A stretch of 64,000 nucleotides of DNA from Acidobacteriota bacterium (lineage in GTDB: Bacteria > Acidobacteriota > Holophagae > Acanthopleuribacterales > Acanthopleuribacteraceae), in contig JASJCB010000003.1 of NCBI GenBank assembly GCA_030066195.1, forward strand, positions 1 through 64,000, read 5' to 3'. Below, piece after piece: positions 29,401 to 47,703 of the stretch. Position 1 is the stretch's first letter; each line of letters opens with the position of its first letter. A program made the position numbers and the translations under genes. The notes under the pieces are model-generated. The model had not been told where the DNA came from, ran no database searches, and worked only from the letters and a program-made list of their open reading frames with translations.

Positions 29401-31266
29401 ATGCAGATAACGCTAAAAAAAATAAGACGGTCAATGCTTTACCTTGCTCTCTTTGCCACGGTATTTCCAGTCTTTTGCCAAGACCCTCCCGCGCAAGGCG
29501 GGGATCAGGCGCCCCTGCCCAAGAAAGAGGTCTATCTTTACCTGGACAACTCGTTGACCATTGTCAATACGAACGAAAACCGTGCAAGTAAGCAGTTGGC
29601 GGAAATGCTACGCAGCGCCCTGAGTTTGGACGCCGGTCTTTTGCAAACCAATGATCGCATTTCCATTTTCAATTTCGGCGAGGCCATCCAAACCAAAGCC
29701 GATGGGGTACGCGCCTCGGAGGACAGTTGGGGTTCTGCTATCGACGAGTTCGAGGAGCCGCGCAGGGGCGACCTGAAAACCAGGCTGGACCAGGTTTTTC
29801 AAAGCATTGAAAACATTGCCAACCCGGAGACGTCCAGCGCCGTTGACGACATTAAAATCTTCGTGATCGCCGGCGATTTCGTGCACGATCCATACAATGA
29901 AATTATCCAAAACCTAAGCCGGGTTCGCGGTGAAATCGAAAACTCTATTTCAAGGCTTGCACGATCGGCGGGTTCCACCTTTACCGGTACCAATCCCCGC
30001 TGTTTCATGTTTCTGCTGAATGTCAAGCCCGACATGAGTAGAAAAAGTCCGGATTACCGGACCGCATTCAATACCCTCTCCGGGCATGCGGTTACCCTGC
30101 TCAAGGAGCGATTGAGTGCCAAGGAGCGCAGCAGTAATACCGGCGGGCGCCAGTTTGCCGAATATGTTTCACGCAGCTTGACCAGATGGGTAGAGGTAAA
30201 ACTGGAAAAGTTTGTGGCAAGTGGCGAGGAATTCCCAGATTTTGAATTGGATATCATTAACCCCAACTGGTTTCCCGTAGAACTCACCTCTTTAAAAGTC
30301 AACGTGAATGAGCAGGGATTGCCGTATGACCCCGATTGGCTCCCCGATCCCATCACCCTATCTCCAGGCTCTAATCTGCATACCATTAATACATTCAACT
30401 TGCGAAATGACTTCAAGAGAAAAACGCTTTTTTTGACACCGGAACAAAGTATCGAGCCATTTACTCCACCTGTGGTTTCCGAGATAGACAATATACCTAT
30501 TTCGCGATTGACCATCCACAAAGCAAAACCTTTCCTTTTCGATTTTTTGAATTTCAAAAAAGTCCTCGTACTGAGAACCCGGGTCAGCATAACCGGCTCG
30601 GATTTCGAAACAACTGAGTTACAGTTTATCCTGAGGGCCAAAAGGGAAGACTTGAAGCAGGCGACCGCCACCAATCTCACACCTGACCCTATTCGGGTGT
30701 CAACGACCGGAGGGAATGGAGAGGCAGAGGTCGATCTGACCTATCGCGAGTCCTTCGAGTACTACGATATTCAGGGCTATGAACTTCTCGTTCAGCAACT
30801 TGTTCAGGGCAAGGTGCTGTTGGAAACCAAGCGCGATCTTGAAATCGACGCCCCGCTTGCCTATCGTATCCATTATGTTGGCAGTGCCTTGGCCCTGTTG
30901 GTCCTCATCGTATTTTTCATACCTACCGTGACAGGGCCCAAACCCGTTCGCTTTTTTCGAGACCGTCTTTTCTACGTGGCCTTGTTTTTATTTGCCGGAT
31001 GTGTGGTAGGTCCGCTGATCAGCGTCAATGCCATCGAACGTTGGGGACCCTATCTGCTCAGTGCCCCCCTCGGCTTTGCCGCTTTGTGCCTCGTTTTCAA
31101 ACTCCAAGTCATGCATTTCGAACGCGACCTGGCGGTATTCCGCCAAAAGAAATCAGACATACCCGTCGAACGCTTCATTTCCAGAAAGATAACGCGCGCC
31201 TTGTTCTTCTCGCTCATTGTCGGCGTGATTTGCTTCGTCTTAGTCTACCTGAACTTGTATACCTAG
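29401..31266 (+). CDS. VWA-like four-TM membrane protein, first gene of tubulin-like operon
   Basis: 621 aa; GGAGG lies 7 nt before ATG 29401. Signal peptide (MLYLALFATVFPVFC). A VWA-like domain follows directly: KEVYLYLDNSLTIVN carries a MIDAS-like D-N-S-L-T, then DRISIFNFG and DDIKIFVIAGDFVHDPYNE. A central beta-rich part lies near residues 260-480. The C-terminus has four TM segments (IHYVGSALALLVLIVFFIP; FYVALFLFAGCVVGPLI; LLSAPLGFAALCLVF; ALFFSLIVGVICFVLVYL). The VWA part should face the periplasm. It is 9 bp before the first tubulin-like gene and has a paralogue at 35769 before the second. Probably the membrane partner of the adjacent tubulin-like protein. Confidence 0.8.
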   Translation: MQITLKKIRRSMLYLALFATVFPVFCQDPPAQGGDQAPLPKKEVYLYLDNSLTIVNTNENRASKQLAEMLRSALSLDAGLLQTNDRISIFNFGEAIQTKADGVRASEDSWGSAIDEFEEPRRGDLKTRLDQVFQSIENIANPETSSAVDDIKIFVIAGDFVHDPYNEIIQNLSRVRGEIENSISRLARSAGSTFTGTNPRCFMFLLNVKPDMSRKSPDYRTAFNTLSGHAVTLLKERLSAKERSSNTGGRQFAEYVSRSLTRWVEVKLEKFVASGEEFPDFELDIINPNWFPVELTSLKVNVNEQGLPYDPDWLPDPITLSPGSNLHTINTFNLRNDFKRKTLFLTPEQSIEPFTPPVVSEIDNIPISRLTIHKAKPFLFDFLNFKKVLVLRTRVSITGSDFETTELQFILRAKREDLKQATATNLTPDPIRVSTTGGNGEAEVDLTYRESFEYYDIQGYELLVQQLVQGKVLLETKRDLEIDAPLAYRIHYVGSALALLVLIVFFIPTVTGPKPVRFFRDRLFYVALFLFAGCVVGPLISVNAIERWGPYLLSAPLGFAALCLVFKLQVMHFERDLAVFRQKKSDIPVERFISRKITRALFFSLIVGVICFVLVYLNLYT

Positions 31267-31275
31267 AGGTGTCCT

Positions 31276-34200
31276 ATGAGTAACAAATACTTTCCCGCGC
31301 TGATCATCGCGGCCGGAGGAACCGGCATCAAGGTGGGCCGTAATCTGCAATCGCTTGCCGATTCCGGTTTGGATGACGATCTCAAGCAGCGCCTGGATAA
31401 CGGCTCGATCCAAATCGTAGGCATCGATACGGACAAGAAGAGCAATGACGAAGTAACTGCCATCGATCCTTTTCTCCTGGATGGAAAGGATACCCCGGAA
31501 GGTGAACGGGAGAAAATTCCCAGCCGCTTGTCCCGTTTACCGCGCAACTGGCTGCATTTGGACCGGGCTTCCCTGAACCACGCAATCGAAAGGGTTCACG
31601 AGGTCATCAGCCCCGGTGATGTACCCCATGATGAGGAACAAAAGTTTCACGAGCCGTTGGCCACCATTCGGCGTTGGTTCCCCCTTAAGAACGAAAAAAC
31701 CGGTGATCAAATCACCAAGGGCCACTCGAAGCTTTCCGGGGCCGCCCAATGGCGCCCCCTGGGAAGGCTTTCCCTTTTCCTCAATGCGCAACGCATCTTC
31801 GAGACCTTGCATCGTGCTTTCAAGATTGTGCAACAATCCGATCCCGAGAAGGGTCCCGTCAGGGCCTATATCGTATGTTCACTGGCGGGCGGCACCGGTA
31901 GCGGCATGTTTTGGGATCTGGCTTTCATGCTGCAAATGATCGATCCCAGCACGCAAACCAGTGGGATGTTCCTCTTGGGCGACCCCTTTGAGGGTGTCGA
32001 TGAAGCCGGTCGCATTTACCCCAACATCTATGCCGCGTTGAAGGAAATCGCCACCTTTAAGAACTGGCGTGAACCGCTTTCCGTCAAGTACCCCATCTCC
32101 CGGGGCAGAACGTTCAAAGGGCAGGCCCAGGGCGCGCTTGCCTTTGATATGGTCTATTTGTACCAATCCTTTCCTCCCGGGCCGGATATCACGGACGTGG
32201 CCAAGGGAACCATCGAAGCCACCTGCTATCGCATGGCGCAAAACCTGCTCAGCTTGCAGCGGGTGGATGTTCACGCCGAATTGGATGTAGGCGCCAACAA
32301 TATCGATTCCGATGCCACTTCCATGACCTCACAACTGGAAAGCACCTACTGCTTCTCAACCACCGGCGCAACCATGTTCCACATGCAGGATCCCGATGAA
32401 ATCGCCAATTACATCCGCTACCAGCTAATCCGTGCTGTGCGACCGGAGCGGTATGAGAAACCCAACCCCCTCAACAAAGATGAACTGGCGGCCATGTTAC
32501 CGGAGGGTAGTTTGGCAGCGGACACCCTGCAAGGTTTTCGCAATGGTTTACTCAGTCAAACAGAAGAAGAAGGTCCGGAACTATTATCGGAAAAACTGCG
32601 GAAGTTCGATGCGGCCACTACCGAAGACGAACAAGACAAGCCAAGCAGCGTCAAAGAAGTATTCGATGCCCTTGGTGATGAATTAAGAGAACAACTGGAC
32701 AAGGTACTCAAGTCCGGTGAGGACAAACTGTCTCTGGGCAGCGTGGATGACGAAATACGTCAGAGATTTGAAGCCGCCATGGCAGACCTGGTGGAGCGCT
32801 TGAAGGAAAGCGTGGAAAGGGTCAAAAAAACCGACCGCCCACTTGACGCCGAAGCCGCGAGAGCCGTGGAAGCCTTCAAGCAAGAACTGGACAAGGAATT
32901 ACCCGCCTCCGATGAGGAACAAACAATCGAAATCAAGGTCAAGGCCCCCGAAGGGGCGGCCAAGATTCGCAATGTTCAAAAGGAAACGCAAGAAAAACCC
33001 CTGGCTGATCTTTCCTTGTGGGAGAAGTTAATCAATTCCTTTTGGGATTGGCTGGGGCGACGCAATTGGTCCAATGATTTCAATTACCGTGAATTGCGTC
33101 GCTATCTTGGCGACCTCAAACAAAATGTGGACGCGCAGGCAAAACTCACCCGCAAAAAAATCGAACCCGTGTTAAACCGGGTTTGGAATCGCTATCGCGT
33201 TGAGATGCAGCGCTTGTTGGACGACCTGCTTGGGAATTCCCGCTCTATTTTGGATGTCAGTGTGGTTCGAATGAGCGAGGATGAAAAGATCCAGGCAGCC
33301 TTCGAGATACCCATCCGCACGGAGTTGAACTTCAGCAAAGATCAGATGAACGAACTGCTGCGTTCTATTCTCCCGCCCACCGATGATTTGGATCAGTGGC
33401 TCGAGGAGCACACCGACGGGGTTCTTTCAGCCCTCAAGAAACATTATCCCGACCAAAGCCGACAGGACACATTTGTTCCTCAAATCGAACCCAAACAGGT
33501 ACGACAGGCATTGGAGGTTTTAGCACGAGACCTCCGACAGCAGTTTTTATCCAACCCGAACCAACTCTCTCCCCAACTCCTGGTTCACTTTATCAAACAA
33601 TGTCTGCCCGAGATCGATTTTGACTCCGGTGAAAGCGCACGCCAGAAGATCCTCACCGCGGGGGATGCCGCTCGTGAAGTGGTGCGCTATTGGAGCAACC
33701 TGGGCAACTTGATTCTGCAACAAGCAGGTGGTGAGGACGCCCTTCGCAAAAGGCTGTTGCGTTGCAAGTCCAAACTATTTGCCAGCGGCATCATCGAAAA
33801 CAAGCTGAACAAAAAGCACCTGGCTGTCTTGCCTTTCAGCAAGTCCAGCCGGCACTACACGGATCAGGACAAGAAACGCATCAAAGAAACCTTCGATGTG
33901 GTTTCTCAAGAAGTCATGCATACCAGTTCTGTGGTCATTTACGAGACGACCGAGAGCCCGATTATCTTCTTTAACGACCTGTTCCGGTCCGCCGAAGAAA
34001 TTGAACGCATTCGGGATTATTACAATTCCTATAGTTCTTATTCCGAGGATGGGAATACAACATTCTTTCACATAGACCGGGGCATGGCGGGCATTTCCGA
34101 TATTGTGGGCGATGCGATCGAAGTTCAACCGGTACGTTGCGGCAACCCAACCTGTACCGCCGACCTGAGAATGACGCCGCGGACGCTGCTGGTTTGTCCC

Positions 34201-35754
34201 GGGTGTAGTAAACCCATCTGGAATCGATGCGGCAACCGCAAATGCTATGCCGACAACCTGAGGGAGCAGATTCAGGAAACCTTCACCAGCAAGGGTAAGC
34301 AGCGCTTCCCCTACGACTGCCCGGTTTGTGACAACGAACTCAAAACCTACTGGTGGAAATGTCCGGACCCGGACCACGCCAAAAAGATACCCGCGGATAA
34401 GGAGACCTGTCCTCAATGCCTCATCGAGTTTCAGCTGGGAAAACGCAACCATAAAGAGGTCCATCGGCGTCCGGATCTCAGGGATTTGGAGTGCCCCGGC
34501 TGTATCCATTTGGAACCGGATTCGGATCACCGGATCAAAATTCCCCATGCATTGGCTCCTTTTTATGAGAAAGGCGTCAACGGACATGACAGCTTACACT
34601 TCCGTGAGTTGGTTGAAAAATACCATGCCGATCCCAAGTACGGCGTCAACGCCCACCACTGTGCCAATTCCAGTGAGGAACATTTCCTCTTCCCAACTTG
34701 CCCCAGGGATCGCGGTAATAAAGACAAAGTACACCATCTATATGAAAACGACGCCGGTCGCTTTGTCTGCACCCGGCACCCTGACCTGCGTTTTTTCGAA
34801 TGTAATTACTGCCGCTATCCGTTGGAAGAAGGCGTTAATTACACCAATGGCTGCCCGCGATGCCTAAGGCCGGTCAAGCACTGCGATTTCTGCAGCGAAA
34901 AGTTCAATCGGCTCTATACGCCCATCAAGGACTCCGATCCTGCGCGTTGCCCCAACTGTACAAACTTGATGCAACGTAATGAAATGATTGACCAGGAAGA
35001 AACGATGAGCGGTTTGGACGAACCTGCATTCTGCGCTAATTTGTTCTCATGCCCGGCCGGTTCCCAGCCCTGGGTAACCTCCTCCGACTACCATTTGGAA
35101 GAATGCCGATCCTGCTCGGAACCCGTCTCACCCTTGATGCCGAAAAGCGATTTAAAGCAGTTGGTGGATGATTGTCCACTGTGCTCCCTGGTCTTGAGTC
35201 CGATACCGGTTAACGGCAAGAAAGAGTATCTTTCCGGCAAGATGATCGGAGATAAATTCATAGTGGGCTTATCAACAGATCAGCCGATCAACCTCGATCG
35301 GATTTGTATTATTTGCGGCTCTCAGACGGGCTACATTCTGAATTGGATGCTCCAAGACGGCTATTTGCTGAACGAAAAACACCCGCGTCAGGAGGTTATC
35401 AAGACCGAACCCGAAAAGTTGCCCAAAAAGTTGGATACCTCTGTTTTGAAATCAGCTCTTGAAGAGCATCCCTACAAGAAACCCGAACTGTACTTTCACG
35501 ACGCCCTGGAAATGCTGACTATTTTCAGGGAAGAACCGGACGACTACAAGGCTTTCCTGAAACTGAAACGGGCTTTGGGCTTGGAAGCCTTGCTCAGCAC
35601 CGACCCGCATCATCAGGAAAGTCTCCTGGATGCTTTTGAGAAGGGATCGCGTGCCGGCTTGACCCTGCGCAAGCGAATGGCAAGCTTGTGGCAATACCAA
35701 CAGGAACTGAAAACCCGAACACAGCAATGGGTTCGCAAACCGGACAGAAAGTAA
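31276..35754 (+). CDS. Giant tubulin-like protein 1 with C-terminal zinc-knuckle array
   Basis: 1492 aa. The N-terminal 400 residues look like the bacterial tubulin-like family (Tubulin_2 type): ALIIAAGGTGIKVGRNL at 8-24 and the nucleotide-loop motif SLAGGTGSGMFWDLAF, GGTGSG at 205-210, equal to the GGGTGSG of FtsZ/tubulin. I cannot find a clear T7 catalytic loop. A helical, coiled-coil-like middle (about 410-620: LREQLDKVLKSGEDKLS; LVERLKESVERVKK) follows. A shared segment LQQAGGEDALRKRLLRCKSKLF lies near 820. From about residue 954 to 1360 there are some ten CxxC pairs (CGNPTC, CPGC, CGNRKC, CPVC, CPQC, CPRC, CDFC, CPNC, CPLC, CIIC), a zinc-ribbon array. No TM. It should bind GTP or ATP; function unknown. 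Confidence 0.8.
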   Translation: MSNKYFPALIIAAGGTGIKVGRNLQSLADSGLDDDLKQRLDNGSIQIVGIDTDKKSNDEVTAIDPFLLDGKDTPEGEREKIPSRLSRLPRNWLHLDRASLNHAIERVHEVISPGDVPHDEEQKFHEPLATIRRWFPLKNEKTGDQITKGHSKLSGAAQWRPLGRLSLFLNAQRIFETLHRAFKIVQQSDPEKGPVRAYIVCSLAGGTGSGMFWDLAFMLQMIDPSTQTSGMFLLGDPFEGVDEAGRIYPNIYAALKEIATFKNWREPLSVKYPISRGRTFKGQAQGALAFDMVYLYQSFPPGPDITDVAKGTIEATCYRMAQNLLSLQRVDVHAELDVGANNIDSDATSMTSQLESTYCFSTTGATMFHMQDPDEIANYIRYQLIRAVRPERYEKPNPLNKDELAAMLPEGSLAADTLQGFRNGLLSQTEEEGPELLSEKLRKFDAATTEDEQDKPSSVKEVFDALGDELREQLDKVLKSGEDKLSLGSVDDEIRQRFEAAMADLVERLKESVERVKKTDRPLDAEAARAVEAFKQELDKELPASDEEQTIEIKVKAPEGAAKIRNVQKETQEKPLADLSLWEKLINSFWDWLGRRNWSNDFNYRELRRYLGDLKQNVDAQAKLTRKKIEPVLNRVWNRYRVEMQRLLDDLLGNSRSILDVSVVRMSEDEKIQAAFEIPIRTELNFSKDQMNELLRSILPPTDDLDQWLEEHTDGVLSALKKHYPDQSRQDTFVPQIEPKQVRQALEVLARDLRQQFLSNPNQLSPQLLVHFIKQCLPEIDFDSGESARQKILTAGDAAREVVRYWSNLGNLILQQAGGEDALRKRLLRCKSKLFASGIIENKLNKKHLAVLPFSKSSRHYTDQDKKRIKETFDVVSQEVMHTSSVVIYETTESPIIFFNDLFRSAEEIERIRDYYNSYSSYSEDGNTTFFHIDRGMAGISDIVGDAIEVQPVRCGNPTCTADLRMTPRTLLVCPGCSKPIWNRCGNRKCYADNLREQIQETFTSKGKQRFPYDCPVCDNELKTYWWKCPDPDHAKKIPADKETCPQCLIEFQLGKRNHKEVHRRPDLRDLECPGCIHLEPDSDHRIKIPHALAPFYEKGVNGHDSLHFRELVEKYHADPKYGVNAHHCANSSEEHFLFPTCPRDRGNKDKVHHLYENDAGRFVCTRHPDLRFFECNYCRYPLEEGVNYTNGCPRCLRPVKHCDFCSEKFNRLYTPIKDSDPARCPNCTNLMQRNEMIDQEETMSGLDEPAFCANLFSCPAGSQPWVTSSDYHLEECRSCSEPVSPLMPKSDLKQLVDDCPLCSLVLSPIPVNGKKEYLSGKMIGDKFIVGLSTDQPINLDRICIICGSQTGYILNWMLQDGYLLNEKHPRQEVIKTEPEKLPKKLDTSVLKSALEEHPYKKPELYFHDALEMLTIFREEPDDYKAFLKLKRALGLEALLSTDPHHQESLLDAFEKGSRAGLTLRKRMASLWQYQQELKTRTQQWVRKPDRK

Positions 35755-35768
35755 GACGAGGTAAGCAC

Positions 35769-37640
35769 ATGGCCTGGTTCAGACAATTTTGGATCGCAAT
35801 TCTGTTACCTCTCTTACTTTCAGGGACAACCGGATTCGGCTATGTGCAACCAACGGCCGGCGATGGTCAACCCGGCCTGTTTGACGAAGTGTCGATCTCT
35901 ATCTACTTTGACTATTCCTCTTCCTTCGTCGACAAGCACCGGGAGGAACTGGCTTCCCTCAACAACTCGCTTGACGGCTTGCTGAGAGGGATGTTCGAAC
36001 GAGACCTGGAAAATGTGGTTGTATATTATTTTGACGGCAACATCGCAACAAGTTCCAAATCATTGAACTCAGTCGGTGACCTGGATGGTTTTGCCTTTCC
36101 CACCGGGGCCAATACCAACATCGGCGGCTACGAGACCAATCTGGTGAGAGTATTCCGCCAAATAAGCAGAAAAACCTCGTTCAACCATATTTCCCTGGTC
36201 ATTAGCGACTTTGTTCATGAAGAGGTCAATTGTTCCAATAGGGCCCAACGCTCTACCAATTGTAACCGGGAGAAAGGCCCGGAAGACCAAACGGGCTGCT
36301 GCCTGGAAGAGAATCGGGCTAGTTTCCTGCATTATCTGGATGACGCCGTCTCCGAACTCGGCGATACCATGATCTTTTTAATCGATCTTGATTGGGTACC
36401 CCCAAAAAGTGTGCGTGGCCGTTTTATTGAGACGATCCCCCTGGCTTCCGATATCCAACAGAAGCTGTCCGGCCCGGGTTTCATCAGGACCATCAGAGCG
36501 GGAGAACTTTCCTACGGTAGGTTCGCACGTGATTTTATGAACCTGAAACGCGAAAAAGTAGAAACGGTAGGCGCCTTTTTCACGGGGGGCAACAAGGAAC
36601 AAATTGCCATCACCCTCAAAGGTAGTGGTCTTCATATCGATGATATTTCCGGTTTGAAAGTCAAGTCGAACAATCTCAATGAACGGGATTTATCGGGGTA
36701 CATGCTTCTGGGTAACTTACCTTTGGGCGACCTTTTGGTTCTGATCGACAATCCGGGTTCCGTCAATCTGCGGAGAGGTGAATCTATCATGCTCAAGGTG
36801 GTTTACGGAGATGGTTTCGAATCGAAGTGGACCCCTTCCATGGTGCTTGAGGATACCGGTTACGTAGTCACTTACAACAAGGTCACCCTGTTACCCAATG
36901 TCAGTGGTAAAGAATACGGCTACCAGGTTCGGATAATGCAGGAAGGCAGCGCAGGTCAAAGACTGGAGGGCCGGCTTTTCGACGATGAAAACTTGATCGG
37001 GACATTGGATCGGCGCAATGGCGTCAACCCCGTCCAGTTGTGGACCGTACTCGACCCGGATGTCAACGGCATCGGTAACAAGGTAGCCTTCGGGCTTCAA
37101 TATCGTTTGGAAAATGCCTCGAAACACATCATCCGGGTTGGCTCCTTCGAACGGAACAATGCCTACGACGGCTTTCGAAACTTCACCCTGAAATGGTCAC
37201 TTTACTCCACCGTGTTCATCATGCTCATATTCACGATCATCGATCGCTTGAAGATCAAAACACCAAGAAGGTTCAGCGATTATTGGGGACTGCTGCTGCC
37301 TAACGCCGGGATTGTCGCCGGCTGTATGCCCAGCTACTTCTTCTCCTTTATCAATACATACCTGTATTACGACGGCGCCTGGATGAAACCGACGTCATCC
37401 CTTTTTTTACATCTGATGTTTGCCTTGGGCGGTTCCTCTCTGTTGACCGCGTTATGCAGCAACCTCGCCCGCATGGCAGCACAGCGCCGGTTCGACCGTC
37501 ATGATTGGGGCAAAATTTCAGGACAGACGACACCGGAAGCCTATGCCGACAAGCTCACCTTCAGGACCAAGACCTTCGTTTCACTTTTCTGGTTCGGCTT
37601 CTCGATACTCTTCTTTCTTCTGCTGCAACCGTATATCTAG
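35769..37640 (+). CDS. VWA four-TM membrane protein 2
   Basis: 623 aa from ATG 35769 (GAGG upstream, 14 bp after the previous stop). Signal peptide FWIAILLPLLLSGTTGFG. The VWA domain has a perfect MIDAS (VSISIYFDYSSSFVDKH: DxSxS), then FNHISLVISDFVHEEVN. A Cys-containing insert follows (CSNRAQRSTNCN, CC). Four C-terminal TM segments match the layout of the first VWA protein, for example STVFIMLIFTIID and VSLFWFGFSILFFLLLQ, although sequence identity is low. Gene order VWA-tubulin, VWA-tubulin suggests that each pair was duplicated as a module. Confidence 0.8.
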   Translation: MAWFRQFWIAILLPLLLSGTTGFGYVQPTAGDGQPGLFDEVSISIYFDYSSSFVDKHREELASLNNSLDGLLRGMFERDLENVVVYYFDGNIATSSKSLNSVGDLDGFAFPTGANTNIGGYETNLVRVFRQISRKTSFNHISLVISDFVHEEVNCSNRAQRSTNCNREKGPEDQTGCCLEENRASFLHYLDDAVSELGDTMIFLIDLDWVPPKSVRGRFIETIPLASDIQQKLSGPGFIRTIRAGELSYGRFARDFMNLKREKVETVGAFFTGGNKEQIAITLKGSGLHIDDISGLKVKSNNLNERDLSGYMLLGNLPLGDLLVLIDNPGSVNLRRGESIMLKVVYGDGFESKWTPSMVLEDTGYVVTYNKVTLLPNVSGKEYGYQVRIMQEGSAGQRLEGRLFDDENLIGTLDRRNGVNPVQLWTVLDPDVNGIGNKVAFGLQYRLENASKHIIRVGSFERNNAYDGFRNFTLKWSLYSTVFIMLIFTIIDRLKIKTPRRFSDYWGLLLPNAGIVAGCMPSYFFSFINTYLYYDGAWMKPTSSLFLHLMFALGGSSLLTALCSNLARMAAQRRFDRHDWGKISGQTTPEAYADKLTFRTKTFVSLFWFGFSILFFLLLQPYI

Positions 37641-37649
37641 GGGCTGATT

Positions 37650-40600
37650 ATGTCTAAAAAAAATCCGCAATTCAAACCGGCTCTTCTCATCGGTGCGGGC
37701 GGTACCGGCGTTAAGGTGCTGCGCTATGTCAAAAGCCTTGCCGAGGAGGGTATCGAACCACAACTGAAAAAAATGATGGATTGTAACTACCTAAGCATGG
37801 TGGCCTTGGACACCGATCATAAAAGCAACGACAAAGAGCAGGCCGTCGATACGAATATGGCTAATCACAGTTGCGAGAACGGGGAGAGCGCCGAACGTCT
37901 ACCTTCAAAGCTGCATCTGATTGATGAAACCTGGGTTCACCTGGACCGCCGCCCGCTCAACCGCGCGGTGTCCACCTTAAACCGCTACCAGTCAGCCAAC
38001 AGTCTCGAAGACACTGAGGATTTTCCCTTAAAGACGATTAGTAAATGGTTCCCTAAAAAACTGCCTAATGGAGACTCTATTACCCTGGGTCATTCCAAAC
38101 TGTCAGGAGCGGCGCAGTGGAGACCGTTGGGAAGATTGGCCTTTTTCCTGAACGCCTCGCGGATATACAACGCCTTGTTTACCGAATTAAACAATGTATC
38201 CCAATCGGCTCCCGAAAACGAAACCGTGAACGCCTACATCATCTGCTCGCTCGCGGGCGGTACGGGAGGCGGCATTTTTTGGGATCTGGCCTTCTTTCTT
38301 CAAATGATCGCCCCGGGAACCAAAACCTCGGGCTTGTTTCTGCTTGGTGACCCCTTCGAATCGGTAGACGAGGCAGGCCGTATTTTCCCCAATATTTATG
38401 GGGCATTGAAAGAAATTTATTATTACAAAAACTGGCAGCGTGAATTCCGGGTCGACTATCCCATTGGTGATGGAAAATTTTTCGATAGTGCCAAAAACGG
38501 CTTGATTCCCTTCGATATCACCTACCTTTTCCAATCTTTTCCGCCCGGATTCGGGGTGGCCGATCGTTCCTCGGCAACCATAGATTACACCTGCTTTCGC
38601 ATGGCCCATAACCTGCTGTCACACATTCGTCATGATATTCACCGCGTTTTGGATGTGGGCGCCAATAATATCGACTCCGATACAACCTCCATGGCCTCAC
38701 AACCCAAAAAAGGGTTCTGTTATTCCACCTCGGCCAGCGTCTCGTTCCCACTTCACGATGTTGCCCATATGGGGCCCTACTTCAAGTGCGAACTGGTCCG
38801 TCACTATCAGAATCAGATCAACACCCGGTTGGAGGCGGCGCCCAAAGCAATTGAAAAAGATCAGTTCCCTGAAAAATCGGTTCCAACCTTCCAATCCTGG
38901 CAAGATCATTTTTTCAAAGAACACCAGGGACTACTACCCGGTATGAAGGACCTGCTGGAAAAAATCGACTACACCTTGGCCAGGCTGAGAAGCATGCCTG
39001 ACGCCAACCCCTACAACCTGATCCATAAAAACGTGGGTCAGCGTTTGAGGACCGCTATCGAGACGATAGACTTGGAACATGAAACTCTAGAGCTGGAAGG
39101 TGTTTGGGGCAGAGTGGAGAAGGTGATTTCGCAAGCCGCAAAGGAACTTTCGACGGCTTGGGAAAAAGAGAAAGCTACCTTGGTCGGGGAGACGGAAATC
39201 CTGGAAGATGAATACTTGAAAATGTTTGAAGGTTGGCTTTCGCATCTGCAGGAAGCGCCCATCGATGAAATGTTGTCAACAACCTCCTGCCGGATACCGA
39301 TGCCCGCCGGCAGCCACTCTTTTCTCGACCCCTTGCGCAAGGATGCCGCTGCCGGTCAGGCCGATGAGGACGGAACCGCCAGTGGGGCCGAAGACGATCA
39401 GCAAGCCGGTTTCGCTCACAAGTTGGCGGACAAAACCGGCAAACCGGTTCGGTTGCAAATAAGGAAAAGAAGCCAATGGGTCATTGACCAGGATCGCATT
39501 CAACGCGCCTATCACGCCATCTCGAAAACGTTTTTGGAAAGCTTGAAACAGCGTCTTGCAACCCAGGTCTATGATCGCGGCGCAGCGGAGATCACCTACC
39601 TCCTGGCTTGTGCCTGGAATGAACAAAGACGCCAATTCCTTGAAAACTGCCGGGAACTTATCGAGAAAAAAAAGACCGACCTGGAGAAACACAAACGCGA
39701 TATCCAACGCTACGAACAGTTCAAGCGCACCTTGACCGAGTATCTGACGGGAAATCAGGAAGAAAAACCTGAAAACTTTCAGGTCTTTTTGGGCCAGATG
39801 GCTCCTTCTGCAGAAATGCGCCGGAACGATTGGTTCCGGCCCCGCGCCACACAACTGCTGAACCGCCTGGCCAAAAACCTGAAATATGACTTTTCCGATC
39901 ATGAGAAGTTGCAAATTCCCGATCTGGACCTGGATCTTGATGAAATGATCTCTCGCCTGAAGAAATTATGCCGGCAGTTGGAGGAACACAGTAATTTCGG
40001 CACGACTGACTATAATAAGGATTATTTTCAGGAATTTCTCAAGGACTGTGTGTTTAAGGAGGACATTGCAAATGTGGAAGATGGACCGGCCTTTATAAAA
40101 CGCCTCGAGATCATCGTCGACAGCATTGTCGACTACTGGTCGGCCTATGCCCACAACATCATGATGCAAGCAGGTGGTGAAGATGCCTTCTTGGAGCGCT
40201 TATACCGCTGCCGTCCCAATATTTTCGCGGGCGGCGTGCGTGAAAATTCCATCAACAAAAAGCACCTGGTGCTCTTTCCCTTTACCGGGGAAATGTCTGA
40301 TGAAGACCACAAGGAGTTCGAGAATCTATTCAAACGGATCAGTCAAAGAGTATTCCACGTAGGGCCGACTATCGTAGCGGAACCCACGAGAACACCGATT
40401 ATCTACTACGAAGACCTTTTCCGCGGCGCCGATGAAATTGCAAGAATTGAAGACTATTATCATGCTTACGAACATGAAAACCGGCTCCGCAAAGCTTTTT
40501 TTCATATACACCCGGATGCCTCGGACTTCCCGGAAATCATCAAGGAACCCTCAGCCGCCCACATTTCTTGCGGCAACCCTGGTTGCGACAATAATATCAA

Positions 40601-42314
40601 GCATGAGGATCGGACCCTGAAAATATGCCCCGGCTGTAAAAACCCGATTTGGAATCGTTGCGGCAATTCGGAATGCCCTGCTGACAATCTTCGAGAACTG
40701 ATCTTTTCCGAAAGCGCGGGAAACGAATGCGGCCACAAGAACTATATTCCGCACAACTGCCCCAAATGCCGCCGTAAACTGCTGAACTGGTGGTGGGTCT
40801 GTGAGGAGAAAGACCACAACCGGCCCAACCCCATGGACAAAATATCGTGCACCACTTGCGTGAAAGAGTACCACGAGGGGAAGCGCAACCTTGACGATAT
40901 CAGGCGCCGGCCCGACAGCCGCGATTTTAATTGCCATGGATGCGAGAGCAAGCCCGGCCACTGTTGCCCGGTGAAAGTGCCGGCTTCCCTGAAGCGGTTC
41001 TATTTGGAAGGCGTTAACGGCCACGACGGTATCTTGTTTGCCGAACTCATCGCCAGGTGTAGGCAAAACGGATATGAGATCGGTCATTACCAATGTGAGA
41101 AGGGATATTACAGGCATTTCATTTTTCCCACCTGTCCGGAAGGCCGCAACCAGGAAAACAAACGCCACCACCTTTACAAAACCCAGAAAGGCGTCTGGTC
41201 TTGCACCGATCACACCTTACTTGAATTCTCCACCTGCGGCGAATGTGGTTATCCCATCTGTCTCGACTTTGATAAGGCCGGTTGCCCCCGCTGTTTGAAA
41301 AAGGTTCGCGATTGTTTCTATTGCACCGAAAAAACCGGTAGTCACCGATTGCCCGTGGAAGGATCGGACCCGGAACGGTGCTCTTATTGCTTCAATCTGA
41401 TGAACGGCTTCGAGTCGGATTTTCTTCTACCCGACATTACCGCGAACCTGAAGGAGCCGGCGATCTGTCCCAATATTTTTCACTGCAAGGCCGCGGCACA
41501 TCCCCATGAGACCTCTTCCAAGCATGATTTGGGTCATTGTAAGGTTTGTGAAGAAGCCGTTTTGTTGCCGCGGCATTATTTCTTACACGAACTGGACCGC
41601 TGTCCGTTCTGTCGCATCTCATTCGGCCGTAACAGTCATTCCGGCATCAGAAAAATCGATGAGGACCCATTCGATGTGATCCGATATTGCATGGAAGTTT
41701 TATGCAAGACAATTAAGGACGAACGGCCTATTGCCCGCTGCGTCATTTGCGGTATTCATCCCATCGACTTCACTTCATGGTTCATCAACACACACCTGGC
41801 GGAAGACTGGAAAGACCTGAAGCCACCCTACAAAGAGTCTCTAGAGCCCAAAAAAGATGAATTTTTGAGATGGGTGGCTGAGCTCAATCCAGGTATTGAA
41901 GAATATGCCTTGGAGGTATTGCACTTCACCGGGGATACTGCTCTGGAACACTACCGGAAAAAGACTTTACCTGAAATCGATTGGAACGTAGGCATGAAGA
42001 TCTTCAAAACGCTGCTCCAAAAACGAGAGGATGTAGATGCTGCTTTGCACCTGAATAAATTATTCAGTCCACCGGACAAGCGCGAACCCTCGGTTGTAGA
42101 AGACTTGATGAAACTCTTCGTGCCGAAATCGGCAGTTTACCGCATCGTCTCCAAACGCCTGGTCGGCCTTCTGAGAGAACTGAGAAAGTTCTCCTCGGAT
42201 CGATCGGATTGGTCAGGTCAGGGCACCGACATCTATCAAAGCAGGGCAAGTTATGACAAGACCACTCCCGATAACGACGGCGACCAGAAAAAACCGAAAG
42301 AAGATGGAGCGTAA
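37650..42314 (+). CDS. Giant tubulin-like protein 2 with C-terminal zinc-knuckle array
   Basis: 1554 aa, the largest protein in the window, starting 9 bp after the VWA gene. N-terminus: ALLIGAGGTGVKVLRYVKSL and SLAGGTGGGIFWDLAF (GGTGGG at 203-208), then LLGDPFESVDEAGRIFPNIYGALKEI, nearly identical to the same stretch in paralogue 1. The middle is helical with strong coiled-coil character (ELIEKKKTDLEKHKRDIQRYEQFKR). MMQAGGEDAFLERLYRCRPNIFAGG is the shared pre-array segment. The C-terminal third has the same CxxC order as paralogue 1 (CGNPGC, CPGC, CGNSEC, CPKC, CTTC, CGEC, CPRC, CFYC, CSYC, CKVC, CPFC, CVIC). Likely a filament-forming or NTP-switch scaffold. Confidence 0.8.
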   Translation: MSKKNPQFKPALLIGAGGTGVKVLRYVKSLAEEGIEPQLKKMMDCNYLSMVALDTDHKSNDKEQAVDTNMANHSCENGESAERLPSKLHLIDETWVHLDRRPLNRAVSTLNRYQSANSLEDTEDFPLKTISKWFPKKLPNGDSITLGHSKLSGAAQWRPLGRLAFFLNASRIYNALFTELNNVSQSAPENETVNAYIICSLAGGTGGGIFWDLAFFLQMIAPGTKTSGLFLLGDPFESVDEAGRIFPNIYGALKEIYYYKNWQREFRVDYPIGDGKFFDSAKNGLIPFDITYLFQSFPPGFGVADRSSATIDYTCFRMAHNLLSHIRHDIHRVLDVGANNIDSDTTSMASQPKKGFCYSTSASVSFPLHDVAHMGPYFKCELVRHYQNQINTRLEAAPKAIEKDQFPEKSVPTFQSWQDHFFKEHQGLLPGMKDLLEKIDYTLARLRSMPDANPYNLIHKNVGQRLRTAIETIDLEHETLELEGVWGRVEKVISQAAKELSTAWEKEKATLVGETEILEDEYLKMFEGWLSHLQEAPIDEMLSTTSCRIPMPAGSHSFLDPLRKDAAAGQADEDGTASGAEDDQQAGFAHKLADKTGKPVRLQIRKRSQWVIDQDRIQRAYHAISKTFLESLKQRLATQVYDRGAAEITYLLACAWNEQRRQFLENCRELIEKKKTDLEKHKRDIQRYEQFKRTLTEYLTGNQEEKPENFQVFLGQMAPSAEMRRNDWFRPRATQLLNRLAKNLKYDFSDHEKLQIPDLDLDLDEMISRLKKLCRQLEEHSNFGTTDYNKDYFQEFLKDCVFKEDIANVEDGPAFIKRLEIIVDSIVDYWSAYAHNIMMQAGGEDAFLERLYRCRPNIFAGGVRENSINKKHLVLFPFTGEMSDEDHKEFENLFKRISQRVFHVGPTIVAEPTRTPIIYYEDLFRGADEIARIEDYYHAYEHENRLRKAFFHIHPDASDFPEIIKEPSAAHISCGNPGCDNNIKHEDRTLKICPGCKNPIWNRCGNSECPADNLRELIFSESAGNECGHKNYIPHNCPKCRRKLLNWWWVCEEKDHNRPNPMDKISCTTCVKEYHEGKRNLDDIRRRPDSRDFNCHGCESKPGHCCPVKVPASLKRFYLEGVNGHDGILFAELIARCRQNGYEIGHYQCEKGYYRHFIFPTCPEGRNQENKRHHLYKTQKGVWSCTDHTLLEFSTCGECGYPICLDFDKAGCPRCLKKVRDCFYCTEKTGSHRLPVEGSDPERCSYCFNLMNGFESDFLLPDITANLKEPAICPNIFHCKAAAHPHETSSKHDLGHCKVCEEAVLLPRHYFLHELDRCPFCRISFGRNSHSGIRKIDEDPFDVIRYCMEVLCKTIKDERPIARCVICGIHPIDFTSWFINTHLAEDWKDLKPPYKESLEPKKDEFLRWVAELNPGIEEYALEVLHFTGDTALEHYRKKTLPEIDWNVGMKIFKTLLQKREDVDAALHLNKLFSPPDKREPSVVEDLMKLFVPKSAVYRIVSKRLVGLLRELRKFSSDRSDWSGQGTDIYQSRASYDKTTPDNDGDQKKPKEDGA

Positions 42315-42317
42315 TCT

Positions 42318-45300
42318 ATGAACACGAATTACCACCCCGCATTATTTATCGGCGCCGGCGGCACGGGAGTCCGGGTGCTTCGCTTCGTGCAGTCCATAGC
42401 GGGTCAGGGTTTGGAGCCGGGCTTGGAGCACATGCTGTCTTGTCACCTGATTCGCATGGTCGGCATTGATACGGATCAGGAGGTCAACGCTGTTGAAGAG
42501 AGTATTTCGCCTAATTTGTGCCGCATGTCTTGCGAACAGAGAAAAAGTTCGGAAAAGGTGCCCGAGCGTTTGCTGAAGCTGGAAAAAGTGCTTTATTGCG
42601 ATCCTCGTGCGGTGACCAAGGCCGTCAACAAAATGGTGGTTGGTAATGACGACGGCAAAGAAGACGAAGCCGCAAACATGAGCTTCGTTAAAAAATGGTT
42701 TCCGAAAGCTGGAGGCGGCATCCCGCCCGGGTTGGCCACGCCCTGGGCACAGTTGCGCCCCTTGGGTCGCCTGGCGCTCTTTCTTCAGGCACAGTATCTT
42801 TTCGAGGAATTGCGAAAGTCTTATCAAGCAGTCAGACAATTGGCCCCCGGCTCCGGACCCGTGGATGTCCATATTGTGTGCTCCCTGGGTGGTGGAACCG
42901 GAAGCGGCATGTTCTGGGATCTTGCTTTCTTCATCCGAAAAATTGACCGCGATGCCAGAATCACCGGTCTGTTCGTTTTAACTGAACCCTTCGAAGGCTT
43001 CAATCACACCGGACGCCTCTACCCCAATGTTTACGCCGCGTTGAAGGAACTCCACTATTTTAAAAACTGGATCAAACCCCTCAGTGTGGAATACCCTATT
43101 GAAGGCAACCTGGTTTTTCAGGGAAAGGAGCATGATGTTCCGGCTTTCGATCGCGTTTTCCTATTTGGTGGTTTCCCCGCGGGCTTCGAGGTTGAAAATC
43201 GCGATACAGCAACCATTGACGTTACCTGCTTTCGTCTCGCTCAAAACCTCCTTGCTTATCAGCGAATGGATCTGAGGCGGACGATTTCAGGTAGTCATGG
43301 TCCCGACACAGCTGCCATCCCGGGCAGCTTGGAGCGCTCCTATTGTTTCGGCGCAAGCACCGCGGTCCCTTTTTATTCGGAGCCCTCGATCGATCTTGCC
43401 GGGAATGTATTCCAAAATCTACTGAAAACGGCTGTTGAAAAAGCCGACCGGGAGACAACAACCGAAGCACCTCCCCAAGACCTTCCCCCGATCGAATTGG
43501 ACGATGTTTTAAAAGCGTTCCATTTGGAGACGGTCGTGGGGAACGCCCCATTCGCCACCCCCAACTTGAAACCGGAACCGGTTACCTCTTGGATCGGCGA
43601 TTTGGAGCATCTTGAGGTAGACCTGGACTCCGAAAAAAGGAAGCTGAGTGTCCAGGAAATGATCGATCATTACATCCCTACCGTTTTCAGGGATATGGTT
43701 GAGCGCTACGAGGAGGGAGATGGGGTTCCCCTTGACGGTTTGCAGTCGGCCTATGAAGCCCTGATTGAAACAATACTGAAAACTACGGATCCGTCATCAA
43801 CCGGAAGTCTTGCTTCGCTCAGACAGGAAAACCGGGTCTTGTCGCCCGAAGCACGTAGTGCCTTGCGCCGAATCATTGACGACATCGGTCATGCCGAGGA
43901 AAGAGCTGTACCCATTACCTGTCCTTGTCCGCAGGGAGTCGAGGATCTCTTCCTTAAACCAGATGATGTTCCTCGAAGACAGTATTATTCCACGCTAAGA
44001 GACCGTTTCCAGTTTTTCCTGCAAAACTTGAAAAATGAATTGCGAAATTTGCCCAATCTCCAGGACGGAGTGGTGAAGCCTCATATTTACAAGTTTTGGA
44101 AACGGATCTATCCCGAATCCTGGAAAGCACTGCGGTCGTTGCTCGAGGAGCAAGAACAGAAACCCACCGTCGCGGCCGCGAGTTCGGCCGGCAGTTTGGA
44201 TGCGCCAACCTTACAATCCCAAGCTGCCGTCATCGAACCGCCCGACCCGGAAAGCTTGCAAAGTGCACTCTCTTTATGGCTTCCCACCAGGCGAACACTG
44301 GACCATTGGCTTCAAGAGAGAGCGCAAATGCTTGCAAATACCTTCATCGATGCGGGTCAGAGAGATCATCGATTCGAGGTTCAAGGCTTGATCGACCAAC
44401 TGAAACCCCTCGTTCTCCAGATTCAAGACCACCTCGACCAGGGTAGCGGGAAACGGGCGTTACCTCTATTGCGACAATGGCTGGAGCAGTTATTAGATCC
44501 TCATCATCTCTCTCCGGCCGGTGCGGACCGTAGCGCGCGAACGGCCGCATGGGCGGCCCTGTCCCGGAAGGTCATCGATCAGTTACTTGGCGGAGCCCAT
44601 CCCGATAACGCCTATGGCGGCGATCTGGTGGAGCGTCTGTATCGTGCCAGGTCCCATGTATTTGACGACGGTCTGGTTGAAAACCTGATCAACTACCAGG
44701 CGCTCGCCCTGCACCCGTTTTCCAGCCAGGTGTCTCGGGAAAGCTCCGAACGCTTTTCACGAACTCTCGGCGCCTCCGGTCAAAGAGTCTTTGGCCGTTT
44801 ACCTCAGGTGAGCTTTCAGACTACCCCTATTCCCGTCCTGTTTTTTGTCGATATGTACCGATCCGCGGAAGAAATTTACCGCATCAGTGACTACTTTGCC
44901 GCCTATGAGCGGGAGAGCCGCGACTCTCGCGCTTTATTCCATATCGACAGACAGATCGCCGAATTTCCTGAAATCCTGAGTTTGTACCGCGAGGCTACCG
45001 TATTCTGCGGCAATCCAGGCTGTAGTACCAACCTGAAAGGCCTTCCCCGTTCGGTTCGTTTTTGCCCGGGCTGCAATCAGGCCATTCTCAATTTTTGTGG
45101 CAATAAAGATTGTCACGCCGTCAACGTGGCCGAATTGATCGATCACGAGCGGGCCGCGCGTCGCGCCGCCGGCTTGAAAGACAGTATTCCCCATACATGC
45201 CCCGCCTGTTCCAAAAAATTACTGAACTACTGGTGGCAATGTCCCCACCACGGTGAACCCAATCCTATCGACAAGGTGTCTTGTAAAAAGTGCCTTGAGG

Positions 45301-46556
45301 AATACCATCAGGGCATACGCCCGCTCAAAGAGATCACCAGCCGGCCCGATCACCGTTATCAACTGTGCCACGGTTGCCTAACCCTGGAAAAAGACCCACG
45401 CTTCTGTGTGCAGATTCCTCCCGAATTGGCTCCCTTTTACCGCAACGGTGTCAATGGTCATGAAACACGAGTGTTTTTGGGTCTCCTGCAAAAATACAAC
45501 ATACAACGAGATCGGTTGAAACTGGCGTCTTATCTCTGCACCAATGCGTGGTGTGAACATTTCCTTTTTCCAACCTGTCCTATCGATCATAACAGTAGAC
45601 AGCATCGGCATCACCTCTACAAAACCTCCGAGGGCCGGTTCTGCTGTACCCGCCATCCGGAAATCCGTTTTCATTCCTGTTACCAATGCGGCTACCCCGT
45701 TGAGGCTGAAAAGTATGAGCAGAGTTGCCCGCGCTGTATGGCGGAGCTGATGCATTGCCATTACTGTAGTGATATTTATGGCCGGCTTTACCCGCCGCTG
45801 GGTGGTAAAAAACCGGCGCGTTGCCCCCATTGCACTAACTTGATGACCATGAAACTGGATCCCAGCCTGCACACGGTGGAAGACGGCCTGAACCAGGCGG
45901 GCTTCTGTCCCAATATTTACGGTTGTGAAGCGGGCGCCCACCCCTGGGATACTGCCTGCGAGCATGTGGATGAACTGTGCGCCGTGTGCCCGCGACCCGG
46001 AGCCATGCGCCTACCACGCGAGGTTTTGGAGAAAGCCGTGGAAGACTGTCCTTTGTGTTTGTTAACGTTGTCGCCGATTCCCGCCGGGCTTCGGCGCCAA
46101 CCCATGGAACCGGAATCTGTTCTCAGCCGGTTCTCCCAGCGACCCTACGACAAACGCGGCTGTCGTATTTGCGGTTGTAAACCCGATCTGTTATTGGATT
46201 GGATCAGCCGCGACGAGAAATCCGCGGAAGCAGAAGACAAGAAAACCGCACCGTCTGAATACCAACTTCCCTCCATCCATTTCAAGCATGCCCTGGCAGT
46301 GCTTCGCGCTTTCAGGACTGTTCGGGACCCCGCGACAACCTATCGCATGGTGGCCGGCCATCTTCACGAAATGTCGCATAAGGGATCGCCCATGACCTCA
46401 TGGGAAAGTCTTCTGTCTATTTTTCCCGAGTCAAGCAAGCTGCAACAAGTGGTTCATATTCGTATTCAGACGCTTTTGGATGAACATGAGAAACACCTGA
46501 CTCAATTCAGGCACTGGCACCAGCCCGGTGAGAAACGCATCAAGACCATCTTATGA
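42318..46556 (+). CDS. Giant tubulin-like protein 3 with C-terminal zinc-knuckle array
   Basis: 1412 aa, only 3 bp after the previous stop. It has the most canonical loop of the three: ALFIGAGGTGVRVLRF and SLGGGTGSGMFWDLAF (GGGTGSG at 191-197). LTEPFEGFNHTGRLYPNVYAALKEL matches the other two paralogues. The middle is shorter, with Pro- and Ala-rich linkers. The pre-array segment is changed: GGDLVERLYRARSHVFDDG, lacking the QAGGEDA core. The C-terminal array keeps CGNPGC, CPGC, CGNKDC, CPAC, CKKC, CHGC, CYQC, CPRC, CHYC, CPHC, CPLC and CRIC. It has no VWA gene of its own and is followed by three small membrane-protein genes. It may be the partner or cap of the other two. Confidence 0.8.
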   Translation: MNTNYHPALFIGAGGTGVRVLRFVQSIAGQGLEPGLEHMLSCHLIRMVGIDTDQEVNAVEESISPNLCRMSCEQRKSSEKVPERLLKLEKVLYCDPRAVTKAVNKMVVGNDDGKEDEAANMSFVKKWFPKAGGGIPPGLATPWAQLRPLGRLALFLQAQYLFEELRKSYQAVRQLAPGSGPVDVHIVCSLGGGTGSGMFWDLAFFIRKIDRDARITGLFVLTEPFEGFNHTGRLYPNVYAALKELHYFKNWIKPLSVEYPIEGNLVFQGKEHDVPAFDRVFLFGGFPAGFEVENRDTATIDVTCFRLAQNLLAYQRMDLRRTISGSHGPDTAAIPGSLERSYCFGASTAVPFYSEPSIDLAGNVFQNLLKTAVEKADRETTTEAPPQDLPPIELDDVLKAFHLETVVGNAPFATPNLKPEPVTSWIGDLEHLEVDLDSEKRKLSVQEMIDHYIPTVFRDMVERYEEGDGVPLDGLQSAYEALIETILKTTDPSSTGSLASLRQENRVLSPEARSALRRIIDDIGHAEERAVPITCPCPQGVEDLFLKPDDVPRRQYYSTLRDRFQFFLQNLKNELRNLPNLQDGVVKPHIYKFWKRIYPESWKALRSLLEEQEQKPTVAAASSAGSLDAPTLQSQAAVIEPPDPESLQSALSLWLPTRRTLDHWLQERAQMLANTFIDAGQRDHRFEVQGLIDQLKPLVLQIQDHLDQGSGKRALPLLRQWLEQLLDPHHLSPAGADRSARTAAWAALSRKVIDQLLGGAHPDNAYGGDLVERLYRARSHVFDDGLVENLINYQALALHPFSSQVSRESSERFSRTLGASGQRVFGRLPQVSFQTTPIPVLFFVDMYRSAEEIYRISDYFAAYERESRDSRALFHIDRQIAEFPEILSLYREATVFCGNPGCSTNLKGLPRSVRFCPGCNQAILNFCGNKDCHAVNVAELIDHERAARRAAGLKDSIPHTCPACSKKLLNYWWQCPHHGEPNPIDKVSCKKCLEEYHQGIRPLKEITSRPDHRYQLCHGCLTLEKDPRFCVQIPPELAPFYRNGVNGHETRVFLGLLQKYNIQRDRLKLASYLCTNAWCEHFLFPTCPIDHNSRQHRHHLYKTSEGRFCCTRHPEIRFHSCYQCGYPVEAEKYEQSCPRCMAELMHCHYCSDIYGRLYPPLGGKKPARCPHCTNLMTMKLDPSLHTVEDGLNQAGFCPNIYGCEAGAHPWDTACEHVDELCAVCPRPGAMRLPREVLEKAVEDCPLCLLTLSPIPAGLRRQPMEPESVLSRFSQRPYDKRGCRICGCKPDLLLDWISRDEKSAEAEDKKTAPSEYQLPSIHFKHALAVLRAFRTVRDPATTYRMVAGHLHEMSHKGSPMTSWESLLSIFPESSKLQQVVHIRIQTLLDEHEKHLTQFRHWHQPGEKRIKTIL

Positions 46557-46595
46557 GCAAACGGAACCCTTGACTATGTGTTTGGAGGTAAATCG

Positions 46596-47507: not shown

Positions 47508-47511
47508 TGAT

Positions 47512-47703
47512 ATGACCTACATCGCCCTCGGTATTCTCTTTCTTGTATTGCTGGTTATTTTGTCCCTGTTCAAGAAGATGGTCAAAATGGCGCTCAAAGC
47601 CGGCTTCGGCGCCCTGTTCTGCGGTGTCGCCGGCTATTTGATCGCCGGCTTGATGGGTCTGGCCGTGGGCGCTGCCTTGGGTTTGCTATTCGCCTTTGCC
47701 TGA
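47512..47703 (+). CDS. 63-aa double-TM hydrophobic protein
   Basis: 63 aa from ATG 47512, with GGAG upstream. Two hydrophobic helices (ALGILFLVLLVILSLF; ALFCGVAGYLIAGLMGLAVGAALGLLFAF) separated by a Lys-rich turn. Small glycine-zipper-like membrane protein, the last gene of the operon. Its 3' end overlaps the convergent gene by 18 bp. Confidence 0.6.
   Translation: MTYIALGILFLVLLVILSLFKKMVKMALKAGFGALFCGVAGYLIAGLMGLAVGAALGLLFAFA

Follow-up and report, generated by a model that had tools for sequence, protein, structure and literature searches.

Organization of the locus

The window, i.e., the whole stretch of DNA analyzed here, comprised 64,000 nt of contig JASJCB010000003.1 (GCA_030066195.1) from an Acidobacteriota bacterium of the Acanthopleuribacteraceae, and all coordinates are window positions. 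Eight genes formed a real operon in the order V1, T1, V2, T2, T3, m1, m2 and m3, all on the forward strand (Table 1), and its gene order, strand and coordinates agreed with the original prediction. The gaps of 0 to 39 bp given there were correct at the upper end only: with likely start codons, the successive gaps from V1 to m3 were 9, -28, 9, 3, 39, 0 and 4 bp. The start of V2 is probably 35727 or 35769 and not 35688, and m1 and m3 probably start at 46596 and 47512, respectively. The operon is part of a low-GC3 island (29401-51417), in which GC3 was 0.46-0.65 versus 0.67-0.84 in most flanking genes. A convergent gene for a 495-aa protein had a low GC3 like the operon and was not found at other loci with cysteine arrays; it is a putative cassette member only. 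An Rfam search gave no match, and hits of a sigma70 promoter scan were no more common than expected by chance.

Table 1. Predicted features of the VWA-tubulin locus, in window positions
Feature	Position	Strand	Evidence or remark
Sigma54-like -24/-12 promoter site TGGCCCTCTTTTTGCT, beginning 49 nt ahead of the V1 ATG	29352..29367	+	consensus 10/12
V1: signal peptide, periplasmic VWA (D-N-S-L-T), beta-rich region, 4 TM helices	29401..31266	+	
T1: Tubulin_2/FtsZl1 protein, 1492 aa	31276..35754	+	Pfam PF13809 E 9e-32; AF2 model matches FtsZ/TubZ/tubulin
T1 C-terminal cysteine array, 11 CxxC pairs (predicted zinc ribbons)	34132..35319	+	
V2: VWA (D-Y-S-S-S), 3-4 TM helices, diverged V1 duplicate	35727..37640	+	
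T2: Tubulin_2/FtsZl1 protein, 1554 aa	37650..42314	+	Pfam E 2e-37
T2 C-terminal cysteine array, 11 CxxC pairs	40563..41753	+	
T3: Tubulin_2/FtsZl1 protein, 1412 aa	42318..46556	+	Pfam E 3.7e-30
T3 C-terminal cysteine array, 11 CxxC pairs	45000..46175	+	
m1: small protein, one TM segment	46596..46991	+	absent from other array loci
m2: small protein, one TM segment	46992..47507	+	
m3: about 63 aa, three hydrophobic segments	47512..47703	+	
495-aa protein, one TM segment, convergent with operon	47686..49173	-	
Sensor-less sigma54 activator (AAA+ and HTH only; DAYTSS instead of GAFTGA)	49186..50208	-	PF00158 E 1.3e-47
Sigma54-like site CGGCACGCATCGTGCA upstream of the regulator	50233..50248	-	consensus 10/12

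Tubulin-like proteins and their VWA partners

T1, T2 and T3 scored 111, 130 and 106 bits against Tubulin_2, for which the curated cut-off is 27, and with the E-values listed in Table 1 this likeness is not due to chance. The three proteins were 34-35% identical to each other along their whole length and had in common GGTG, DTD, GGTG[S/G]G and PFE...GR..PN.Y.ALKE motifs. Thus, both Pfam and the whole-length alignment bore out the earlier claim of three large tubulin-like proteins with shared motifs; of the C-terminal array of about ten CxxC pairs, the identical order held, and the count was 11 in each protein. Of 12 homologues with an array or close to the array branch, 11 had the GTP-binding loops T1 (GGTG) and T4 (GGTG[S/G/A]G), and the twelfth had GGSGSG. 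An AF2 model of the T1 protein (mean pLDDT 62, core 82-94) had top PDB matches that were nearly all FtsZ, TubZ or tubulin, as the original prediction had proposed for the N-terminal part, with E-values of only about 1e-3 and low TM-scores. A tubulin-profile sequence search of solved structures found no significant match, and Pfam is stronger evidence for the tubulin/FtsZ fold than the structure model. The middle region weakly resembled helical proteins. Together, sequence features support T1-T3 as predicted cytoplasmic nucleotide-binding proteins of the tubulin type, with long, possibly helical middles and arrays of 11 CxxC pairs, which may bind zinc judging by CxxC spacing alone. According to passages of Makarova and Koonin (2010, PMC2875224), T6-H7 elements for FtsZ-type polymerization are not identifiable in FtsZl1, and filaments of T1-T3 are therefore not assured.

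V1 and V2 had no Pfam VWA match, and a VWA-profile sequence search of solved structures found no significant match. The predicted VWA fold was supported by a D-x-S-x-S/T motif and a second (A/S)DF strand, both conserved, and by a low-confidence model of V1, for which the best PDB matches, with E-values between about 1e-5 and 1e-4, were integrin I domains and complement factor B. The metal motif was DYSSS in V2 and DNSLT in V1, in which the final T represents a relaxed form; most homologues had D-x-S-x-T. Four clear TM segments were predicted in V1, and three clear ones plus a weak one in V2, which supports the proposed membrane coupling of the VWA partners. Both proteins look like secreted VWA domains with about four TM anchors and short charged cytoplasmic loops, for example residues 571-600 of V1. 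V1 appeared orthologue-like to the VWA partner in proteobacterial loci, and V2 matched V1 with a BLASTP E-value of 0.001 (22% identity over the VWA part). T1-T3 formed one clade (support 100/99), and comparison of the genes supports a tripling of the tubulin gene and a doubling of the VWA gene in this genome.

Zinc-array loci and their sigma54 activator

Hosts of the zinc-array branch were this acidobacterial genome (1 of 396 Acidobacteriota), scattered Azospirillaceae (7 of 82) and one Pseudomonadales MAG. Carriers of the cassette among Azospirillum include A. soli and A. brasilense MTCC4039. Nine array loci, including that in the window, were compared. The VWA-tubulin pair, for which a neighborhood survey had been suggested, recurred at array loci across two phyla; the VWA partner, represented here by V1 and V2, was also present at other array loci. 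A divergent nSTAND5 NTPase gene adjoined the activator gene in four of the nine loci and was the sole above-cut-off copy in three of those four genomes. The window had no nSTAND5 gene beside the activator, and its copy of the cassette adjoined neither an nSTAND nor a recognized effector; a NACHT gene and the two genes of a Septu pair were located 7-15 kb away. PADLOC 2.0 gave no match at E 1 for the eight operon proteins, and no relatives were found in phage and viral collections or viral contigs.

The sigma54 activator and promoter sites, which the original prediction had missed, are the best lead at this locus. The activator gene follows the operon at a distance of about 1.5 kb, on the opposite strand, and likely starts with the ATG at 50181. 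Its product resembles PspF-type activators in having AAA+ and HTH domains and no N-terminal sensor domain, with only about 30-40 residues ahead of AAA+; it differs from them in belonging to a separate clade and in its loop, DAYTS[S/A] and variants versus GAFTGA/GSFTGA. No PspA-like gene was recognized at the window locus. The activator adjoined the array tubulin in eight of nine array loci, and in eight of nine array genomes the best activator match was the gene beside this tubulin (177-805 bits, all other activators scoring 168 or less). The activators of array loci formed one clade (support 100/100) with a variant GAFTGA loop, and among 82 Azospirillaceae genomes all six copies of this clade occurred in array genomes (P = 2e-8). 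Best-match adjacency, a single clade and co-occurrence with the array indicate that the activator is dedicated to the cassette; its contact with sigma54 is not certain because the GAFTGA loop is changed. The remaining locus (G427/L047) had neither activator nor sigma54-like site: a candidate there is no orthologue, as it lacked the Walker A motif, which reduced the count from nine to eight.

Sites comparable to TGGCCCTCTTTTTGCT preceded the VWA gene in seven other regulator-bearing loci (Fisher P = 3e-4), several of them being individually weak (per-locus background 0.02-0.2). CGGCACGCATCGTGCA is a weak candidate for a site of autoregulation of the regulator. A candidate operator motif common to the V1 and regulator promoters was a 10-mer only and unconvincing. 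As judged from these elements, the cassette appears to be inducible and under its own sigma54 switch.

Related systems and possible function

Operons of FtsZl1 and vWA genes were reported by Makarova and Koonin (2010, PMC2875224). The operons described in its passages share with the window the tubulin family, a vWA gene, TM-rich neighbors and a long region behind the GTPase domain, helical in FtsZl1 and possibly so here, but the window has no recognized kinase, P-loop GTPase or OmpA partner. Beyond these operons, it has the 11-CxxC array, the tripled tubulin and the dedicated sigma54 activator; those passages make no mention of either the array or the activator. Kaur et al. (2020, PMC7159879) described conflict loci that combine two tubulin genes with two vWA genes; one of these vWA proteins is extracellular and has several TM helices, and partners of the STAND and calcineurin types are among the topics of that study. 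As in the window, these GAP1-N2/DO-GTPase systems have tubulin paralogues next to a pair of vWA genes, of which one codes for an extracellular protein with a membrane anchor, and vWA is fused to beta-rich regions. However, DO-GTPase or GAP1 had no Pfam match among 30 window proteins, operon included, and GAP1-M (PF20014), found in a C. glutamicum control, had no match anywhere in this genome, the assembly of which is 92% complete; the window has a zinc array and a sigma54 activator instead. A Thermaceae plasmid cassette (vWA, Tubulin_2, an unknown gene and BrxL) is similar in having vWA directly ahead of Tubulin_2 and an accessory location, whereas its tubulin is about 905 aa long and lacks the cysteine array, its partner is BrxL, and no activator of the window clade was seen. 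The description of an undescribed system was thus only partly right: no experimentally assigned function for FtsZl1/Tubulin_2 proteins was given in the papers found, but the composition was already described in 2010 and 2020. New here are the rare zinc-array branch, its dedicated activator, the sigma54-like sites and the nSTAND5 link.

Several roles could be considered. In housekeeping membrane remodeling or vesicle biogenesis, a tubulin polymer would deform the inner membrane at VWA sites and would have no part in conflict. Membrane-anchored VWA partners, three extra small membrane proteins and the remodeling proposed for FtsZl1 in passages of Makarova and Koonin (2010, PMC2875224) are in line with this role. 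Yet the cassette is rare and patchy, sits in a compositional island, seems inducible and has nSTAND5 as a neighbor at four loci; these features suit an accessory function better than a housekeeping one and make remodeling rather unlikely. Surface structures are often under sigma54 control, and a VWA protein that also has TM helices and a beta-rich region recalls surface-assembly factors, which would suit an assembly or secretion device in which VWA captures periplasmic substrates or pilus-like parts and the tubulin array is a cytoplasmic energizer or sorting platform. No secretin, pilin, transport ATPase or outer-membrane gene was present at the window or common to the other loci, and we consider such a device improbable. 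An RtcR/CARF-type defence locus responding to a nucleotide signal is suggested by the 248-bit score of the regulator against PADLOC RtcR_PspF2. This match was rejected as a link to defence, as ordinary sigma54 activators of the same genomes reach 290-358 bits; moreover, a CARF domain is missing from the window regulator, and the stretch of about 0.9 kb upstream of it holds no plausible gene, which leaves this reading of the locus highly improbable.

We tentatively favor, at somewhat less than even chances, a horizontally acquired, sigma54-inducible VWA-tubulin cassette that is a zinc-array variant of FtsZl1 (Tubulin_2) systems and acts in conflict or envelope stress. Its parts and regulation are well supported; its function is what we infer. 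A signal would free the activator, the VWA domains of V1 and V2 would bind a periplasmic or envelope ligand via metal, and the cytoplasmic loops of V1 and V2 may serve to nucleate a GTP-driven tubulin scaffold at the inner membrane or to hold it there. Zinc would be bound by the cysteine arrays, which would provide a docking surface for protein or nucleic acid. The scaffold might then sequester a threat or open the membrane, most likely in response to conflict or envelope stress, with lineage-specific helpers such as nSTAND5 NTPases in Azospirillaceae and perhaps m1-m3 here. Of the NTP-driven scaffold coupled to VWA that was originally proposed for conflict, envelope or secretion, the folds and membrane coupling stood, and the role is still conjectural. 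A more specific version, that this is an unrecognized immune or envelope-defence system in which the dedicated sigma54 switch induces a membrane-anchored VWA receptor and a zinc-ribbon tubulin polymerizing at the inner membrane, a STAND NTPase being an optional sensor or effector, seems doubtful.

FtsZl1/Tubulin_2 proteins are widespread in bacteria and archaea. The zinc-array branch offers a handle on them, with a dedicated switch, a predicted promoter and a minimal two-gene core, and some of its hosts, Azospirillum among them, are amenable to culture and manipulation. The role and timing of FtsZl1 tubulins thereby become directly testable, and the nSTAND5 link provides a first hypothesis, conflict or immunity.

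Operon architecture and protein features

The eight same-strand genes were found in the order originally noted: V1, T1, V2, T2, T3, m1, m2 and m3 (V, VWA membrane proteins; T, large Tubulin_2/FtsZl1 proteins; m, small membrane proteins). T1, T2 and T3 are the only Tubulin_2 genes in the 11.6 Mb assembly, in which the window lies on contig C133, and scored 111, 130 and 106 bits, respectively (cut-off 27 bits). Full-length identity of T2 and T3 to T1 was 34–35%. These proteins formed one clade (support 100/99), which places the triplication within this lineage. The C-terminal cysteine array, originally counted as about ten CxxC pairs, has 11 in the last third of each protein, and more than 20 cysteines were invariant between T1–T3 and Proteobacteria homologues. 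The T1-loop GGTG, DTD and T4 GGTG[S/G/A]G motifs were conserved almost throughout. A model of T1 residues 1–460 matched FtsZ, TubZ and tubulin structures, with E values of only ~1e-3, in line with the predicted tubulin-like N-terminal domain.

V1 combines a signal peptide and a VWA-type fold with a beta-rich region and four TM helices, and loop charges predict that loop 571–600 is cytoplasmic. Its model matched the integrin I domain and factor B. Because confidence in this model was low (mean pLDDT 45) and Pfam VWA models did not match V1, the VWA assignment rests jointly on fold match, motifs and conservation. Relative to other loci, V1 is the orthologue-like partner and V2 a diverged copy.

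Coordinates of features in the window and in compared loci (L-numbers)
Feature	Location	Strand	Remark
Operon V1 to m3	29401-47703	+	gaps -28 to 39 bp
-24/-12-like site upstream of V1	29352-29367		
Sigma54 activator	49186-50208	-	
Activator's own -24/-12-like site	50248-50233		weaker
Short HU/IHF-like-looking gene	51118-51417	+	
Septu-type pair	20619-22774	-	4 bp overlap
NACHT-domain protein	14016-17432	-	1138 aa
Bacterial lipoxygenase	11020-12939	-	adjoins ankyrin-repeat protein
nSTAND5 NTPases divergent from activator	L011 2016-4832; L048 15278-18007; L010 2560-4596; L045 15441-17201	-; +; -; +	
Apparently split VWA genes	L009 7125-9967; L048 9849-13988		two reading frames
Tubulin_2 genes without array, genome G002	L049 6673-9882; L050 2-3997	-; -	
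Thermaceae plasmid cassettes	L023 5721-14137; L032 7047-15117; L033 6781-16212		

Distribution and acquisition

Full-length zinc-array homologues, each preceded by a VWA-TM gene, were found in a Pseudomonadales MAG (L009), a Rhodospirillales MAG (L010), Azospirillum griseum (L011), A. soli (L012), the A. brasilense MTCC4039 megaplasmid (L022) and three further Azospirillaceae genomes (L045, L047, L048). The VWA gene appeared split at two loci (frameshift, sequencing error or natural split). By genome-wide pattern scan, in which members with a differing T4 loop can be missed, and targeted searches, the zinc-array branch is rare: it occurred in 1 of 396 Acidobacteriota (the source genome) and 7 of 82 Azospirillaceae, with one strong match among 369 genomes from the L009 class; of 385 sampled genomes from the Azospirillum class, one carried the array and another matched in part. 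A same-family genome, G002, carried two other Tubulin_2 genes lacking the array and non-orthologous to the operon.

GC3 was 0.46–0.65 for genes at 29401–51417 versus 0.67–0.84 in most flanking genes; therefore operon and activator look like one block acquired together. The HU/IHF-like-looking gene lies at the block's edge, beside ~0.9 kb with no plausible gene. The Septu pair (GC3 0.63) is another low patch.

A sigma54 activator as dedicated switch

All-against-all neighbourhood comparison placed a 340–365 aa sigma54-interaction protein beside the VWA-tubulin pair. With the L045 activator as query, the adjoining activator was the best match in 8 of 9 array genomes (177–805 bits, 805 being the self match), and every other activator in these genomes scored at most 168 bits. 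Seven array-linked activators formed one clade (100/100) against 16 from the same genomes. Where read, the loop was GAFTGA or GSFTGA in the outgroup and DAYTSS, DAYTSA, DAYTGA, GAFTSA or GAYTNA in the clade. The clade occurred in 6 of 82 Azospirillaceae genomes, and all six carry the array (P = 2e-8 by a hypergeometric test that takes no account of relatedness). A -24/-12-like site also preceded the VWA gene in the seven other activator-bearing loci and was perfect in L009 (12/12); some sites were individually weak, with a combined Fisher P of 3e-4 across nine loci. These data support the activator as a dedicated switch of the cassette.

Neighbours, known systems and possible role

An nSTAND5 NTPase was divergent from the activator at 4 of 9 loci (genomes G411, G412, G445, G489), two of the four being fused to a calcineurin-like phosphoesterase; the window activator had no such neighbour. 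In G412, G445 and G489 it was the genome's sole above-cut-off copy, the chance of its lying within 3 kb being ~1 in 1000 in each. Elsewhere in the window are a Septu-type anti-phage pair (PADLOC; PtuA ATPase, E 2.8e-148; PtuB HNH nuclease, E 2.2e-89), a NACHT-domain protein (Pfam E 1.5e-6; no PADLOC match) that is a possible STAND-type defence gene, and a lipoxygenase (Pfam E 1.8e-51).

The original interpretation, possible NTP-driven scaffolds or filaments coupled to periplasm-sensing VWA proteins, was supported in part: the tubulin fold, VWA fold and membrane coupling held up, but not the label of a candidate undescribed system, VWA-tubulin operons having been reported. Makarova & Koonin (2010; PMC2875224) described the FtsZl1 family, together with its TM-rich operons and the vWA partner that it usually has, and proposed membrane remodelling. 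Conflict systems centred on GTPases, in which two tubulin genes occur with two vWA genes, were described by Kaur et al. (2020; PMC7159879). The window differs from these: GAP1-M was absent from the whole genome and DO-GTPase from the scanned window genes, so the operon falls outside that group. It is a variant within a known family of functionally uncharacterised systems. Among papers found, largely outside subscription journals, none reported a sigma54 activator or zinc array with these tubulins. Separately, three Thermaceae plasmids carried vWA, a short Tubulin_2, a ~680-aa unknown protein and BrxL; helicase and nuclease genes lie close by, and the set is a candidate defence cassette that includes a tubulin. 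A 2026 BREX survey (PMC12839542) does not mention tubulin.

The components, topology prediction, dedicated switch and acquisition as a block are supported. A signal would free the activator, and sigma54 polymerase would allow VWA and tubulin to be made. The VWA domain would face the periplasm, its protein's cytoplasmic loops holding tubulin, which would assemble with GTP, and the cysteine array may bind zinc and a partner. Because of the patchy distribution, inducible switch and nSTAND5 neighbours, we favour, from sequence, a putative role in conflict or envelope defence over housekeeping.
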